From a virus, in IMG/VR virus record IMGVR_UViG_3300023196_002659, positions 1 through 23,509 of that record: a stretch of 23,509 nt of DNA. One strand, given 5' to 3'. The notes under the pieces were generated by a model. It saw nothing but the letters and a program-made list of their open reading frames with translations. It was not told the DNA's origin and did not search any database. Both the position numbers and the translations under genes were made by a program. Shown here piece after piece: positions 6,489 through 20,690 of this stretch. Numbering within the stretch: position 1 is the first letter of the stretch; the number at the start of each line of letters is the position of its first letter.

Positions 6489-7668
6489 TGATAAAACAGA
6501 GTGTGTTGGTGTTTATAAAGATGGAGAACTTCACTTTGAACATATGCCGGCCGATCTACTCAGAACTTGGAAGTACACTGGCTCGGTAAGAGATTCCGAT
6601 GTACAATACGCATGGCTTTATTCTGGCGGGTCGTCTCTCAAGGAAGCTGCACCCTCGGATTTACTTGAAGAGTACGAGGCAACTGTGCGTAAAATGAACG
6701 CTTTTTATAAATCTTTTACAATAGCAAAGATTGATTTCAACGACCACTGCATCTTCGATCTCATTCCCAAGGACGCCCTGCTACAGTTCTGCGAGATAAA
6801 GAATAAGATAACTCAACATGTATTTGAAAACACCACAAAGCCAAATAACTACGATTTTCTGTGCGAGGCTTCGAAACTCATCCATGACATCAGATATCGA
6901 CCACTAAACATCGATGCCTCAGACTGTAAGAGCATGTTCACTGCCACTAACTCCAGGCTCGGCATCAAGAAGATTATCTCCGGCGCTAACTATATTGATT
7001 ACAACCTCTTTGGTACCGTCACAGGCCGATTAACAACCTCTCCCGGGTCTTTCCCCATCTTAACGATGAAAAAGGATTTCAGAAAGGTTGTAAAGCCTAA
7101 AAACGATTGGTTTATTTCATTGGACTATAACGGAGCAGAGGTAAGGACGGTGCTGTCTCTTCTCGGCGAACCGCAACCGCAGGAAGACATTCACCAATGG
7201 AACATTGAAAACGTGTTCAACAAATCAAATGATATACGCAATCCTACGCGCGACGAAGCAAAGACTTTGTTTTTTGGGTGGTTGTACAATCCTGATTCTA
7301 CGATTATCAAGAGCGATCTATATGATCGCAATTTGATTCTTGACAAGCACTACAAAGATGGCTATATTAAGACCATCTTCGGAAGGCGCATTAAAGTGGA
7401 ACAAAGAAAAGCATTCAATTACCTTATCCAAAGCACAACTTCGGATCTGGTTATCGACCGGGCAATTGAGATTAACAAGATGTTAGAAAACACGAAAAGC
7501 CACATTTCACATATTGTACATGATGAATTGGTAATTGACTTGGCTGATGAGGACCGCCCTCTTTTGCCGGCAATTAAAGAAGTCTTTTCAAATAACAAAT
7601 TGGACTCATTCATGGTCAATCTTAAGGCCGGCCAAAACTATTTTGATTTGGGAGACCTAAACCTATGA
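6469..7668 (+). CDS. Family A DNA polymerase, minimal, no recognisable exonuclease domain
   Basis: This 399-residue protein carries all three polymerase motifs of the Pol I family. Motif A is LDYNGAEVR with catalytic Asp219 and Glu224. Motif B (O-helix) is RDEAKTLFFGWLYN with Arg261, Lys265, Phe269 and Tyr273. Motif C is HDE at 351-353. A TGRLTTSPGSFP stretch (185-196) matches the conserved template-side loop before motif A. Position 269 is Phe, as in E. coli Pol I, rather than the Tyr of T7. The B-to-C spacing is about 35 residues shorter than in E. coli Pol I, so part of the fingers/palm is trimmed. The first ~140 residues show no 3'-5' exonuclease motifs that I can see. The start overlaps the upstream gene by 20 bases, and the end overlaps the next gene through ATGA at 7665-7668. 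Confidence 0.9.
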   Translation: MYFQTLDDKTECVGVYKDGELHFEHMPADLLRTWKYTGSVRDSDVQYAWLYSGGSSLKEAAPSDLLEEYEATVRKMNAFYKSFTIAKIDFNDHCIFDLIPKDALLQFCEIKNKITQHVFENTTKPNNYDFLCEASKLIHDIRYRPLNIDASDCKSMFTATNSRLGIKKIISGANYIDYNLFGTVTGRLTTSPGSFPILTMKKDFRKVVKPKNDWFISLDYNGAEVRTVLSLLGEPQPQEDIHQWNIENVFNKSNDIRNPTRDEAKTLFFGWLYNPDSTIIKSDLYDRNLILDKHYKDGYIKTIFGRRIKVEQRKAFNYLIQSTTSDLVIDRAIEINKMLENTKSHISHIVHDELVIDLADEDRPLLPAIKEVFSNNKLDSFMVNLKAGQNYFDLGDLNL

Positions 7669-8528
7669 TTTCTGTGATCGGAATTGGCAATGCTGCGTCT
7701 GCAATCGCAAGTAAGTTTGCAGATCTGCCGCAATACGAGGTATATACCATGAACAGCAAGGTCGAGAAGAACTCAAAGACGCAGTTTAAGTTAAATACGT
7801 ACGATACCCCCGAAGAATACGAAAAGAACGCCCCCCGAGTTAAAAAGTTTTTAAAGAATCTAAAAGACCACGTGCAGGTTTTTGTAGTGGGCTCCTCACT
7901 GAGTTCAATTTATACACTTGGGGTATTAGAGCAGATCAGAGAGAAACAACTGGATGTTTTCTACATCAAGCCGGATATCGAACTGCTCACAGGCGTGCCA
8001 AGATTAGTGGAGAACACGACTTTCGGAGTGCTACAGGAATATGCACGATCAGGCCTTTTTAAAAACCTAACTATTTTTTCCAACGAGAATATTGAGAGAG
8101 TCCACAGTGAGATCAATCTAAAAGAGTACTACAGTATTCTTAATGAGACGGTCTATTCTTGTGTGCATTACTTAAATTATTTTGCACATACCGAGCCACA
8201 CATTGGAAATGTGTCAAAGCCAAGCGATATCAATAAGATAAGAGCAGTGTCCCTTTTAGATATGAAAAGACTTGAAGAAAAGTGGCTATTTGACCTTGAC
8301 ACCGAGCGCGAATTATGTTATTATATGTGTATAAACGAAAAGCGGTTGGAGAGTGAAACAGGGTTGCATAAGCGTTTGGTAGACATCCTAAAAACAAAAC
8401 CCAGGAATGCCTATCGTAAAATTTCTTACGCGATTTACGAAACAAATTTACCAGATTTTGGGTTCTGCGTTGCCCACACTAACGCAATACAACAACAAAA
8501 AACTCTTGACAAGTTCGATCAAGAGTAA
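7665..8528 (+). CDS. Divergent FtsZ/tubulin-like protein (putative)
   Basis: This is a 287-residue protein. Its layout follows the FtsZ/TubZ fold. The N-terminal beta strand and loop ISVIGIGNAASAI (2-14) sits where FtsZ has its GVGGGGxNA loop. A strand and loop VFVVGSSLSSIYTLGVLEQI (72-91) sits at the GGGTGTG signature position, followed by DVFYIKPD where FtsZ has a strand ending in KPF. Next come an N-x-E-type nucleotide-contact helix region (SILNETVYSCVHYL) and SKPSDINKIRAV, matching FtsZ's D-x-x-D-V-x-x-V/M stretch. A shorter C-terminal alpha/beta domain follows. The signature loop has lost most of its glycines, so GTP binding may be altered or absent. It is translationally coupled to the DNA polymerase gene (ATGA). 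This is my own fold reading; a different Rossmann-type protein is possible. Confidence 0.5.
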   Translation: MISVIGIGNAASAIASKFADLPQYEVYTMNSKVEKNSKTQFKLNTYDTPEEYEKNAPRVKKFLKNLKDHVQVFVVGSSLSSIYTLGVLEQIREKQLDVFYIKPDIELLTGVPRLVENTTFGVLQEYARSGLFKNLTIFSNENIERVHSEINLKEYYSILNETVYSCVHYLNYFAHTEPHIGNVSKPSDINKIRAVSLLDMKRLEEKWLFDLDTERELCYYMCINEKRLESETGLHKRLVDILKTKPRNAYRKISYAIYETNLPDFGFCVAHTNAIQQQKTLDKFDQE

Positions 8529-9436: not shown

Positions 9437-9715
9437 ATGTTAGAATCACTAAAGTCCCTATGGGCCAAATGGAAGGTCCAAGTAAGCGTGGCCGGAGGCG
9501 TCCTTCTGGTCGCAACAGCATACGGGACATGTTCGGTTGATCCGGGAGCGGTGTCGACAAACACCAACACTGAAACAACTGAAACAACCGCTAGTGAGAC
9601 CGTAGAAGTCTCTGCCACAACGAGTGGCACAACAACTGGTACGGATGGTGGAACAACCACCGAAACTACCACCGACGGTGGAACAACTGACACCACCACA
9701 ACTACAACAGAGTAG
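9437..9715 (+). CDS. Small membrane-anchored Thr-rich protein
   Basis: This is a 92-residue protein with an AAAGGAG ribosome site just upstream. Residues 1-14 are amphipathic and basic. Residues 15-32 (VQVSVAGGVLLVATAYGT) form a single likely membrane helix or signal anchor, ending at a lone Cys33. From residue 40 on it is almost only Thr, Glu, Ser, Gly and Asp, with GTTT/TTTDGGTT-like repeats, which should be disordered and exposed. The context YGTC is a poor lipobox, so a lipoprotein is less likely. The gene sits alone between RNA element copies A and B, like a cassette. It could be a spanin-like, holin-like or surface-display protein; nothing in the sequence decides this. Confidence 0.6.
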   Translation: MLESLKSLWAKWKVQVSVAGGVLLVATAYGTCSVDPGAVSTNTNTETTETTASETVEVSATTSGTTTGTDGGTTTETTTDGGTTDTTTTTTE

Positions 9716-17621: not shown

Positions 17622-17894
17622 ATGTTTAAGCCAGTAAACCGGTACATCTTGATTGAAGTACCCCCGGAAAGAGAGGTCGATACTCAATCGCTAATTGTAT
17701 TGCCCGAGGACTATGAGCCAGAAAAGGAAAACTTTGCTGTTGCTAATGTTCTTGACTCTGCTGATGATGTGAGATTTGATCTATGTGAAGAATCTAAAAT
17801 TATAGTCGATCGCTCTATGATCGAGCAAATTAAGATTGATCAAACTAATTACAACATTATTCTAGACAATTACGTAGTTGGTATAGTCGACTAA
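17622..17894 (+). CDS. GroES/gp31-like co-chaperonin
   Basis: This is a 90-residue protein with a GAAGGAG ribosome site. The N-terminal MFKPVNRYILIEV matches the first strand of GroES proteins (KPLxDRVLV). Residues about 17-30 (with SLIVLPED) take the place of the mobile loop that docks on GroEL, using an IVLP-type hydrophobic tripeptide. ENFAVANVL, SKIIVDRSMIEQIKI and NYNIILDNYVVGIVD follow the later strands (GEVLAVG, DRVLF, ylilxxxDILAVI). The length is near GroES (97). Phage co-chaperonins such as T4 gp31 adapt host GroEL to fold the major capsid protein. That role is inferred; the capsid gene is not in the window. Confidence 0.8.
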   Translation: MFKPVNRYILIEVPPEREVDTQSLIVLPEDYEPEKENFAVANVLDSADDVRFDLCEESKIIVDRSMIEQIKIDQTNYNIILDNYVVGIVD

Positions 17895-17895
17895 G

Positions 17896-17915
17896 TGACG
17901 ACCCAGGGGGGGTCA
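17896..17915 (+). promoter_or_regulatory. Hairpin covering the ribosome site of the endolysin gene
   Basis: GACCC (17900-17904) pairs with GGGTC (17910-17914). TGAC (17896-17899) can add to the stem with GTCA (17912-17915). The run of G at 17906-17912 is the only candidate ribosome site for the ATG at 17923, and it lies in the loop and 3' arm. Folding would hide it, as described for the T4 lysozyme gene on early transcripts. Confidence 0.55.
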
Positions 17916-17922
17916 ATAAAAT

Positions 17923-18861
17923 ATGGACAAGAATTTCTACAACGAAGCTTCGTCAAAGAAGCTTGGTTGGGAGCCTTCGTGGTTCGGAGAAAAGTATTTC
18001 GATGACAAGCTTGTCCGTGCTATCAAAAAATGGCAAAAGGCACAGCTAATAGCAGCCGATGGGTTGTGCGGCCCAAGTACTTTCCGAAGATTGTGGACGA
18101 CAAGACAAGCCGCCATTGATGAATACAAGCCTCGCGACTGTCATTACTCTAACTACATTATATACAATAGTGAGTTTTTTCCTATTGAGTGGGATAAGTT
18201 TGTTCTTTGGTCCGAGAAAGGTGGCTTGGCCGCCAAGCCTGGTCATTACTATGATTACTCTGGACGCCCCAAGCGAAGTGTGAGATACTTTGTAAATCAC
18301 TGGGATGTTTGCCTCAGCGCTACTTCTTGCCAGCGTGTCCTTGACAGGCGTGGCATTTCAGTACACTTCCTTATTGATAACGACGGAACGATTTACCAAA
18401 CCTTAGATATCCAGCATGCAGCATGGCACGCTGGCTCATCGCGCACAAACCGCCCATCGGTTGGCGTAGAAATCAGCAATGCTTACTATCCCAAGTATCA
18501 AGATTGGTATAAAAAGAATGGCTTCGGTGAAAGACCCGTACTTGAAGACGTGTGGGTTCACGGGAACAACCTAGCACCTTTCATGGGATTCTATCCCGCA
18601 CAAATAGACGCACTTAAGGCTCTTTGGCGCGCCATCAATGGCGCAACTGGAATTCCTTTTGAGACACCACTAAATCAGTTTGGAAAAACCTCAAGCAAAT
18701 ATGTTCAAAAGGTTGCATACGGAAACTTTAAAGGTTTCGTTAGCCACTATCATATAAACAAGGGAAAGATTGACTGTGCTGGTTTGGATATTAAGACACT
18801 TCTTGAAGAAGTTGAGCACGATATCGACATTATAGACTGGCCAAAAAAACAGAAAGAATAG
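17923..18861 (+). CDS. Endolysin: peptidoglycan-binding domain plus N-acetylmuramoyl-L-alanine amidase
   Basis: This is a 312-residue protein. Residues about 22-62 form a peptidoglycan-binding module (DDKLVRAIKKWQKAQ, then DGLCGPSTFRRLW). Residues about 118-290 are an Amidase_2/T7-lysozyme-like domain: His126 in YFVNHWDV, VHFLIDNDGTIYQTLD (148-162), the WHAG segment at 168-171, GVEISNAYYP (181-190), and His277 with Cys285 spaced eight apart, as His122/Cys130 of T7 lysozyme. Those three would bind zinc. There is no signal peptide, so release should need a holin or another export route. The gene follows the co-chaperonin with a 28-base gap that holds a ribosome-site hairpin. It should cleave the amide bond between muramic acid and the stem peptide at lysis. 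Confidence 0.9.
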   Translation: MDKNFYNEASSKKLGWEPSWFGEKYFDDKLVRAIKKWQKAQLIAADGLCGPSTFRRLWTTRQAAIDEYKPRDCHYSNYIIYNSEFFPIEWDKFVLWSEKGGLAAKPGHYYDYSGRPKRSVRYFVNHWDVCLSATSCQRVLDRRGISVHFLIDNDGTIYQTLDIQHAAWHAGSSRTNRPSVGVEISNAYYPKYQDWYKKNGFGERPVLEDVWVHGNNLAPFMGFYPAQIDALKALWRAINGATGIPFETPLNQFGKTSSKYVQKVAYGNFKGFVSHYHINKGKIDCAGLDIKTLLEEVEHDIDIIDWPKKQKE

Positions 18862-18887
18862 TATTTTAGCATACGCCTATTTACCGT

Positions 18888-19436
18888 ATGGGTTTTATAG
18901 TATCAATATTAATATATTGCAATATGATCGTTGAGCCGGCCTATGAAGCGCCTCCGCCGCTTAAGATAAACTCTCCTCACGTTGTGGAGATGTTTGCGAT
19001 TGGGGCACCCCAACAAAAAGCGGAATGGATCATAAAGCCGACAATAAGGGTCTGCGCTTCCGCCGAGGTTCCATTCTTTAGAGTCCAACGTGCAATGAGA
19101 TATTGGGAAAAGAATGGATACATTTTTGATGGAGTGGTTCCCGACTCTTCGCCCGCTTGCGCAGAACCTCGTTTCGGCGAAATCATAGTCACTTTACCCG
19201 AGGGTGGGTTTTCAGACGCACACCTGGCGTCGACGCGGCTTTATGTCAGCAACAAAACAGGCGAAATTTTAAAAGCAAAGATTCACATACTCCCTAAACA
19301 TGCACGTAAAGAGCGTGTTTTGGAGCACGAGATGGGTCATGCCCTAGGGTGGTCGCATTATCGGCAACGCTATCACATAATGCATCCAACGTGGGCCGGC
19401 GGCGGCTATGATTCCTATGGGATACGCAAAAGATAG
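18888..19436 (+). CDS. Matrixin-like zinc metalloprotease
   Basis: This 182-residue protein carries the metzincin signature HExxHxxGxxH: His147, Glu148, His151, Gly154 and His157 in LEHEMGHALGWSH. A Met-turn follows in HIMHP with Met165, eight residues after His157. That spacing and the HPTW end match matrixins (M10). The N-terminus is a short hydrophobic stretch (residues 2-15), a possible weak signal or anchor with no leading positive charge, followed by a Pro-rich segment. No Shine-Dalgarno is visible before the ATG at 18888; a second Met at residue 13 is no better served. The gene lies between the endolysin and a secreted protein, so a role in opening the cell surface or in processing surface proteins is plausible. 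Confidence 0.75.
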   Translation: MGFIVSILIYCNMIVEPAYEAPPPLKINSPHVVEMFAIGAPQQKAEWIIKPTIRVCASAEVPFFRVQRAMRYWEKNGYIFDGVVPDSSPACAEPRFGEIIVTLPEGGFSDAHLASTRLYVSNKTGEILKAKIHILPKHARKERVLEHEMGHALGWSHYRQRYHIMHPTWAGGGYDSYGIRKR

Positions 19437-19465
19437 TTGACACTTTATGCCAACTGGGTTATAAT
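19437..19465 (+). promoter_or_regulatory. Consensus sigma-70 promoter before the secreted-protein gene
   Basis: TTGACA (19437-19442), a 17-base spacer, and TATAAT (19460-19465): a perfect match to both boxes with ideal spacing. It begins on the base after the upstream stop codon TAG (19434-19436). Transcription would start near 19472, about 19 bases before the ATG at 19491, leaving room for the AGGAG ribosome site. Confidence 0.85.
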
Positions 19466-19490: not shown

Positions 19491-20690
19491 ATGTTTACAA
19501 ATTTATTATTATCGCTATGCCTTATGGGCACAGCAAACGCTAGCGACTTAAGCGCCAGCGAGACGTCTTATTCAGGCGCATCTATTTTAGAAGGAGACTG
19601 GGACGTATCGTTTGAAACCGCTACCGACATCGCTGGCAGTGAGGGCCGATTTCCGTACGCCTTTTTTGAGGGGAATACGCTTTACGTGGGCAACTCGGAC
19701 GTTTATGATAACACCATTGATGCCATTGTGGAATTTTTCTGGTTTCAATCGTCGATTGATAGGGGTACAGATTTTTATGTTGCCGTCATCAAAACACGGG
19801 TTACGCCGGGTCACGACTGCTACTACGCACCCTGGGATTGGGCGAGAGGAGCACAGTGCAAGCTCTGGGCAGACGAGTGGAGTGATTGGGGTGAACATCC
19901 AGTTCTGAGCGTTGAGGCTATGACAGATGTAGCGCGCGAACAGGGTGCTTTTCGTTGGGACTGGTCGGTTCCATTTGAGTCATATGGCATGGATGCCTAT
20001 GGGCAAGTAACATTCCAGAACGCATATGGTATCGGCTCTGACTCTGAGGGTGCCGTGATGGCACACGGAGAGTATAAGGTGGATGAAGAGGGTACTGAAA
20101 TGCAAGCCGCCGGCAACGTTCAGGTGAAAGGCTTTCACTCTTCAGAGTACTCAGTCCAAACACAATACGAAGTAACACTGTATGAGTGGGATGTATTTGT
20201 TGATGGCCGTGCCGATCTAATGGCGTGGGACATGTACCTGAACCTTGGAGCCCGAGAAACACAGTCAGCTTATCATGAATACTTTTTGAGTGTTCAGGTT
20301 GAGGAAGGTATGCCCTTCAGGATCGATGAGTTAAACTTTGTGGGTAACTTTGATACCGGTTGGTATGACCCCTTTCACCATGAGCTTGGCGTAACTTTGA
20401 GCGATTTGGTAATCTCACAGCCATTCTTTATTCCTGCTGATGAACCTGATGATGAAGAAGAGCCAGTTGTCACAGATAACGACACCGGTGAGCCACCCAT
20501 GATAGAAGACACCGGCGCAGAACACGAAGAGGATTCAGACACTGGAGGCTCATTTGAGTTTGCTGAAAATGCGAGAGGGCCGAGCCCCAAGGATCCGGCA
20601 GGTTGCAACAGCGTATTGAACAGCCGAGGCAGCTTGTATGTTATCTTTATGGCTGCGCTAGTCGCTGGCTTTAGACGAAAAGAAGATTGA
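19491..20690 (+). CDS. Secreted protein with C-terminal sorting signal (MYXO-/GlyGly-CTERM-like)
   Basis: This is a 399-residue protein. Residues 1-17 form a signal peptide (hydrophobic core, cleavage after Ala-Asn-Ala), although the n-region lacks Lys or Arg. The mature part is rich in Trp, Tyr, Phe, Asp and Glu and looks like beta sandwich; I recognise no enzyme family. Cys residues in GHDCYYAPW and AQCKLW may form a disulfide. Residues about 325-363 are acidic with three DTG motifs. The C-terminus has Cys372, a short hydrophobic helix (380-394) and an Arg-Arg-Lys cluster (395-397), the plan of MYXO-CTERM or GlyGly-CTERM surface-sorting tails. That tail suggests processing by host machinery and display at the host surface. 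A consensus promoter drives it, so it may act early in infection. Confidence 0.7.
   Translation: MFTNLLLSLCLMGTANASDLSASETSYSGASILEGDWDVSFETATDIAGSEGRFPYAFFEGNTLYVGNSDVYDNTIDAIVEFFWFQSSIDRGTDFYVAVIKTRVTPGHDCYYAPWDWARGAQCKLWADEWSDWGEHPVLSVEAMTDVAREQGAFRWDWSVPFESYGMDAYGQVTFQNAYGIGSDSEGAVMAHGEYKVDEEGTEMQAAGNVQVKGFHSSEYSVQTQYEVTLYEWDVFVDGRADLMAWDMYLNLGARETQSAYHEYFLSVQVEEGMPFRIDELNFVGNFDTGWYDPFHHELGVTLSDLVISQPFFIPADEPDDEEEPVVTDNDTGEPPMIEDTGAEHEEDSDTGGSFEFAENARGPSPKDPAGCNSVLNSRGSLYVIFMAALVAGFRRKED

Follow-up and report, generated by a model that had tools for sequence, protein, structure and literature searches.

A matrixin-like metalloprotease family of uncultured phages, commonly encoded directly after the endolysin and predicted to be exported and expressed late

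We report that a viral DNA record of 23,509 bases, analysed over its whole length and hereafter termed the window, carries at positions 18888–19436 of its plus strand a gene for a matrixin-like metzincin protease (182 residues, ATG start), as supported by a Pfam M10 match, a fold match and an aligned family of 57 members. The computations leave it all but certain that the product is a metzincin whose fold is matrixin-like; that it is an active protease we predict as very likely. Our preferred reading, to which we give about an even chance, is that of a late, exported enzyme acting on the host envelope as an accessory factor of lysis and release; i.e., (i) the gene would encode a zinc endopeptidase of matrixin-like fold, (ii) it would be transcribed late, from its own phage promoter, as a leaderless mRNA, (iii) a short N-terminal hydrophobic segment would direct export across, or anchoring at, the cytoplasmic membrane, (iv) the protease would cleave host proteins of the envelope or surface as the adjoining amidase cuts the peptidoglycan, and (v) this cleavage would ease lysis and virion release. 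Envelope proteolysis in aid of lysis is favoured by the combination of four features, namely the matrixin-like active site, the segment of export type, the late type of expression and adjacency to an endolysin. The motif, fold match, conservation, purifying selection, mutual exclusion of promoter and Shine-Dalgarno sequence, endolysin linkage and optional presence were computed; catalytic activity, export, timing, substrate and any benefit to lysis we infer. Our best guess is still that the protease serves in lysis or in surface proteolysis, and if the lysis reading is true, proteolytic opening of the envelope would take its place in phages beside holins, endolysins and spanins.

The initial annotation had noted a complete HEMGHALGWSH motif and a Met-turn at matrixin spacing, and both are borne out. 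The zinc-binding motif spans residues 147–157 (19326–19358, plus strand), comprising H147, E148, H151 and H157, and the Met-turn HIM spans residues 163–165 (19374–19382, plus strand), with M165 as its methionine; the window protein thus has both hallmarks of the metzincin clan, i.e., the HExxHxxGxxH/D motif and the Met-turn. A phmmer alignment of residues 146–176 with human MMP-7 was weak (E 0.23) and free of gaps, which places the Met-turn at matrixin spacing. The best Pfam family is Peptidase_M10 (PF00413, E 1.4e-4), for which the score of 22.2 bits lies below the curated cut-off of 24 bits; we therefore name the protein matrixin-like and do not file it under M10A. The same model matches all 57 aligned family members at E≤1 (best 2.2e-6).

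These relatives were gathered from viral contigs, in which a first scan with a single-sequence query yielded nine loci and a profile scan yielded 151 candidate stretches, including 108 relatives, the best 80 of which were used; a scan of a genome collection added a single relative among 37 stretches. With the window, this amounts to 82 protease loci and 65 distinct proteins, 57 of which were aligned, with a few start codons picked by hand (the other eight were near copies, were cut at contig ends or held an ambiguous base). H147, E148, H151, H163, C56 and C91 are invariant in 57/57 aligned members. Across the 65 distinct proteins, 63 have His and two have Asp as third zinc ligand, the Met-turn residue is Met in 64 and Leu in one, and the distance between this residue and the third ligand is constant. 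Eight of nine chosen pairs gave dN/dS values of 0.035–0.144, with the ninth pair saturated, and the value against the nearest relative (L003) was 0.046. Given the invariant residues, the retention of the third ligand and Met-turn, and the low dN/dS, the motif is beyond chance; loss of the zinc ligands in all relatives, by which the protease assignment was to have been overturned, did not occur. Asp serves as the third ligand in L078, L080 and L081, loci in which the protease adjoins genes that appear by eye to be thioredoxin-like and nuclease-like instead of this endolysin. A further relative (L121, positions 6769–8025) lies directly after small lipoprotein-like open reading frames, as read by eye, in a 293-kb phage contig.

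Structure prediction, proposed at the outset as a check, also points to matrixins. An AlphaFold model of the window protein, built with a 57-row alignment, has a mean pLDDT of 87.9; values exceed 90 in every block of residues 41–180 and fall to 53–69 over the first 40 residues. It comprises a low-confidence helix at residues 3–12, five strands, a helix at 63–74 and the active-site helix at 144–152. Matrixins (MEROPS M10A; MMP catalytic domains and karilysin, 2xs4/2xs3) share with it the HExxHxxGxxH motif, the Met-turn spacing and the fold over residues 40–182. The top VIA-align score (Z 11.6, karilysin and MMP-13) covered 131 aligned residues at an rmsd of 2.9, and all 50 of the 50 matches listed were matrixins (Z 10.7–11.6). 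Among solved structures, Foldseek ranked MMP-7 first (E 2.9e-5) and karilysin as the next kind of protein (E 1.1e-4); TM-scores by query length were modest, at 0.40–0.50 among the best 25. Unlike matrixins proper, to which it is about 19% identical, with a PF00413 score under the cut-off, the phage protein has two invariant cysteines and a probably leaderless late mRNA. The window model also has no helix of four or more residues beyond residue 152, whereas a model of the divergent relative L074, based on 28 aligned rows (pLDDT 91.9), retains one at residues 166–174; the window copy thus looks, in the model, like a trimmed matrixin-like domain. Matrixins also carry structural zinc and calcium sites and a cysteine switch, PRCGxPD; read by eye, the window protein has no PRCGxPD motif.

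Other known families are more distant. The HExxHxxGxxD motif of the two Asp-bearing members is that of snapalysin (M7), a structure of which (PDB 4hx3) was among the Foldseek matches (E 3.7e-3), whereas the third ligand of the window copy is His. The MXAN_2677/MXAN_2678 myxosortase-dependent metalloprotease model (NF041905) is matched by 55 of the 57 members at E≤0.1 (best 1.6e-4), with the window match limited to residues 144–173 and to 15.5 bits against a cut-off of 250. At E≤0.001, Foldseek hits in BFVD were mainly insect-virus metalloproteases, together with a matrixin/M10-annotated protein of an uncultured Caudovirales phage (A0A6J5P205, E 5.5e-5, 15% identity to the window protein); a second such annotated protein, from Maribacter phage Colly_1 (A0A8E4XY18), follows at E 3.7e-3 and 10% identity.

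Metzincins had been called rare in phages in the initial annotation, a view that calls for qualification. On the one hand, none of three tblastn queries found a match among 50,697 phage records, be it the window protein (at E 0.01) or two divergent family members (at E 0.05). On the other hand, there are the 108 IMG/VR stretches and, in BFVD, other phage proteins annotated as matrixin/M10; found on many uncultured-phage contigs in one scan, the relatives of the window protease form a family and are not the curiosity of one contig. This family has been overlooked by PHROGs and by the phage-record collection searched: PHROGs gave no match for the window protein, and a scan of the 57 aligned members hit seven families, each matched by one or two members (best E 7.1e-4). 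A limited literature search, with incomplete coverage of subscription papers, found no description of this protease family among the matches listed; in the accessible part of PMC10013915, the proteases discussed are those of the host. When only the C-terminal 103 residues were searched at E 10, 12 phage records were matched, the best (E 0.02) being the tape measure protein of Arthrobacter phage Shambre1 (OP297545.1, 13960–14109), which is 42% identical over 50 residues including the zinc motif and may contain a genuine zinc-peptidase stretch.

The N-terminus of the protease is of an export type. Residues 3–12 (18894–18923, plus strand), which form the low-confidence helix of the model, probably constitute a short export signal or anchor, and a comparable hydrophobic stretch is present in 63 of the 64 distinct proteins with a complete N-terminus. 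Under the same test, with home-made hydrophobicity thresholds, the controls scored 0/52 (endolysins) and 0/50 (ribonucleotide reductases), other core genes at most 15/54 (c4), and the secreted protein encoded downstream of the protease 17/17; the endolysin itself has no such segment. Given this difference from the control genes, export of the protease is likely. By lipobox patterns that were likewise home-made, 15 (strict) or 29 (loose) of the 64 relatives have a lipobox, the strict form being found in none of 435 distinct proteins from ten other gene clusters, and lipid attachment is thus likely for part of the family only. The window copy has no lipobox, which, together with the modest Foldseek TM-scores, we count against our preferred reading. 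The invariant C56 and C91 would be compatible with a disulfide bond in a protein that is exported. Export-type N-termini, along with the bacterial protease karilysin among the closest solved folds, would also suit an enzyme that, after release, degrades extracellular matrix, host exoproteins or the proteins of competitors for nutrients or diffusion; since the phage would presumably gain little once its cell is gone, we consider this quite improbable.

With respect to expression, the lack of a Shine-Dalgarno sequence at the start codon (18888) had been observed correctly, whereas the low or coupled expression deduced from it does not fit the window copy, in which a late-promoter-like element stands in place of the Shine-Dalgarno sequence. 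This element, CTATTTA (18877–18883, plus strand), ends 4 nt before the start codon. Across 39 distinct upstream regions with gaps of 12 nt or more, the consensus is CTAnTTA, likewise ending 4 nt before the start codon (C 28, T 34, A 34, T 32, T 34 and A 34 of 39, in order), with a pyrimidine at position −1 in 39/39 and a purine at position −2 in 37/39. Element and Shine-Dalgarno sequence exclude one another: among 54 distinct protease genes that follow the endolysin, 34 have only the element, 15 only a Shine-Dalgarno-like sequence, five neither (in two of these, L006 and L009, the element is one base off position) and none both (Fisher p 1.8e-9, treating related and hence non-independent sequences as independent). 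Each of the 15 genes with a Shine-Dalgarno-like sequence either overlaps the endolysin gene or adjoins it (gap −4 to 3), which makes coupled translation plausible for these 15/54 relatives. Moreover, when the 60 nt past the endolysin stop codon are considered, CTAnTTA is present at 32 of the 52 loci where the protease comes next, and at 0/21 of those in which the next gene or the secreted protein follows instead.

The same element recurs elsewhere in these genomes. Pattern CTANTTANNRYRTG has 17 occurrences in 10 of 12 larger relatives, against one for a reversed control pattern. In the 106.9-kb relative G001 (L083–L088), CTATTTA is found 16 times on the coding strand and twice on the other, and 10 occurrences fall in the 70 nt preceding gene starts (our own ORF calls) against 0.91 expected; the tail sheath gene is among those so preceded. 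For the looser CTAnTTA, the counts are 40 vs 11 by strand and 16 upstream of genes vs 2.28 expected, whereas TATAAATA, which we take to be the T4-type late promoter pattern, is hardly enriched there (2 vs 0.51 expected). CTATTTA looks like the late promoter element of this phage lineage; the protease of G001 itself is preceded by CTACTTA. Shine-Dalgarno-like sequences are present at 52 of 87 G001 genes, as opposed to 11% of random 17-mers. The simplest reading is that of a predicted late promoter, travelling with the gene, that would start a leaderless mRNA at or next to the ATG; because the element abuts the start codon in place of the Shine-Dalgarno sequence, absence of the latter would signify probable leaderless late expression, a rule that could be applied to other genes of the lineage. 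RNA folding around the protease start was no better than that of shuffles, and the window gave no Rfam match and no tRNA. A late-promoter-like element in common with structural genes might instead suggest a protease that is associated with the virion or processes its scaffold; the export-type N-terminus and conserved cysteines nevertheless point outside the cytoplasm, and the gene has replication genes on one side and the endolysin on the other, outside the head and tail block of G001, leaving this idea very improbable.

The placement of the gene beside an amidase, remarked on in the initial annotation, turns out to be widespread. The upstream neighbour (17923–18861, plus strand) is an endolysin with PG_binding_1 and Amidase_2 domains by Pfam and PHROGs, and in 68 of the 82 protease loci the gene immediately before the protease is an endolysin of this type (of the rest, four have no upstream gene and 10 have something else), corresponding to at least one locus for 54 of the 65 distinct proteases. 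Eight distinct proteases lie elsewhere than behind such an endolysin, and a profile of the latter gave no match in 11 such or cut-off loci. The recurrent order is ribonucleotide reductase, a small gene that may be absent, GroES-like, endolysin, protease, the optional secreted protein, two conserved genes and DNA polymerase III alpha-like (the GroES-like and polymerase labels being read by eye).

Seen from the endolysin, the protease is common without being universal. In the best 80 of 503 endolysin relatives, the gene directly after is the protease in 52, the next conserved gene in 17, the secreted protein in four and something else in five, with two loci too short; the protease is therefore skipped in 21 of 78 informative loci. 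Of the five other loci, one carries two inserted genes ahead of the protease, and in four no protease is present in the flank covered. To cover the 26 loci where something other than the protease comes right after the endolysin, 21 records, which may be fragments, were searched over their whole length: 19 held no protease and two held one elsewhere. A quick tree of 63 distinct endolysins, 43 of them with the protease directly after, requires at least seven changes of this label, three forced by well-supported branches. From the skipped loci and the tree changes, we conclude that the protease is an accessory gene in a variable slot. The two genes inserted between endolysin and protease in L173 (3452–5133) are perhaps tail or fibre genes by eye, such that the slot takes varied cargo. 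In L152 and L153, the stretch separating the endolysin from the next gene seems to encode the final residues of the secreted-protein tail, the remainder of that gene being absent, as if a moron had been inserted and then deleted.

Such patchiness bears on what the protease does. Considered as membership in a lysis module, linkage to the endolysin in 68/82 protease loci stands against absence of the protease from 21/78 endolysin loci, and we count against a lysis role both this optional presence and the eight distinct cases in which the protease is away from this endolysin. An accessory trait outside the lysis pathway would fit these eight cases, and the seven or more tree changes, as well or better: the protease might strip surface proteins late in infection, such that progeny avoid adsorbing to debris or rivals can no longer adsorb. 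The export-type N-terminus and late-promoter-like element are compatible with such receptor shaving or control of superinfection, which we regard as possible, if unlikely, as it would leave the repeated position right after the endolysin unexplained and as exclusion would be better timed well before lysis.

For the lysis role itself, the nearest tested precedent that we found is, by analogy, the Listeria metzincin Mtz. According to the accessible part of PMC8235301, Mtz is of phage origin and, with its partner lipoprotein Tim, enhances phage-mediated lysis and raises virion yield about 5-fold; with inactive Mtz there was no enhancement of lysis (section 4.4 therein). Common to Mtz and the phage protease are the metzincin class, the association with phage and secretion, which for the phage protein is predicted. 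In the same accessible text, Mtz differs in its Gram-positive chromosomal locus, its CI/Cro-like control and its requirement for a TIMP-like partner, and we liken the two by description, not by sequence. No partner protein is conserved in the phage family, whereas the Listeria effect needed one, a point we also count against the lysis role. Furthermore, lysis may proceed with no obvious need for the protease, as G001 has holin-like and i-spanin-like genes elsewhere. These belong to a candidate lysis cassette of three overlapping small genes far from the endolysin (G001 57708–58693; L086:708–1693), comprising a holin-like gene (by eye), an i-spanin-like gene (PHROG Rz-like spanin, E 0.09) and one with a superinfection-exclusion PHROG match (E 3.8e-5). 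A more specific form of the lysis role, speculative and distinctly unlikely in our estimate, would be that of a mobile cassette of late promoter and leaderless gene, the product of which, a matrixin attached to the membrane or outer membrane, would cut the proteins that fasten the outer membrane or surface layer to the wall, alongside spanins or in their place, and would represent an undescribed class of lysis proteins.

Maturation of the secreted protein encoded next (19491–20690, plus strand) had been put forward as another function. As regards the neighbour itself, a signal peptide and a Cys-TM-RRK tail are seen by eye, in keeping with the secreted protein with a sorting tail first described; the tail has, however, no backing from NCBIfam, in which no model matches the protein at E≤1. 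A myxosortase-type tail, suspected by eye, likewise gained no support from any NCBIfam model at that threshold. A consensus sigma-70 promoter, TTGACA-17-TATAAT (19437–19465, plus strand; 12/12 consensus bases, spacing 17), precedes the gene and begins directly after the protease stop codon. Over 15 distinct upstream regions of the secreted protein, nine have a perfect promoter of this kind, two match 11 of the 12 bases and four have none.

The two genes are adjacent in the window, lie within two genes of one another in 20 of 77 protease loci, and are found about 2.2–2.4 kb apart in L121 and L126, which belong to another lineage, as would suit an enzyme and its substrate. Conversely, 57/77 protease loci have no secreted protein within two genes. 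A scan with the secreted protein gave 42 loci, in which it accompanied endolysin and protease in 20, the endolysin without protease in nine, the protease without this endolysin in two and neither in the flanks in 11; eight of the nine records with endolysin then secreted protein were searched whole and none held a protease. In all, 20 records with the secreted protein, among them these eight and the two with a protease and no such endolysin, were searched whole, and five carry a protease somewhere. Ten phages have a secreted protein 75–93% identical to the window copy and proteases at 42–59% identity; the protease is also more variable than the endolysin beside it, as 12 endolysins of the lineage are 70–80% identical to that of the window. 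From its high identity and its own sigma-70 promoter, we deduce a history for the secreted protein separate from that of the protease; it behaves, so far as sequences tell, as a recently mobile, separate moron within an optional, moron-like cassette, and not as a dedicated substrate of the protease. Maturation of the neighbour is accordingly the function to which we give the least credence, as extremely improbable.

As to the host, the sole relative from the genome collection (L082) lies on a 9.2-kb contig binned in a Neomarinimicrobiota MAG. Because its gene order is that of this phage type, its presence in the MAG may be contamination, and 198 further Neomarinimicrobiota genomes gave one short, weak match. 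Elsewhere in the window, positions 9437–9715 encode a 92-residue protein that combines a single membrane segment with an extended Thr-rich tail; small proteins that resemble it by eye are encoded at G001 17817–18071 and near the protease in L079.
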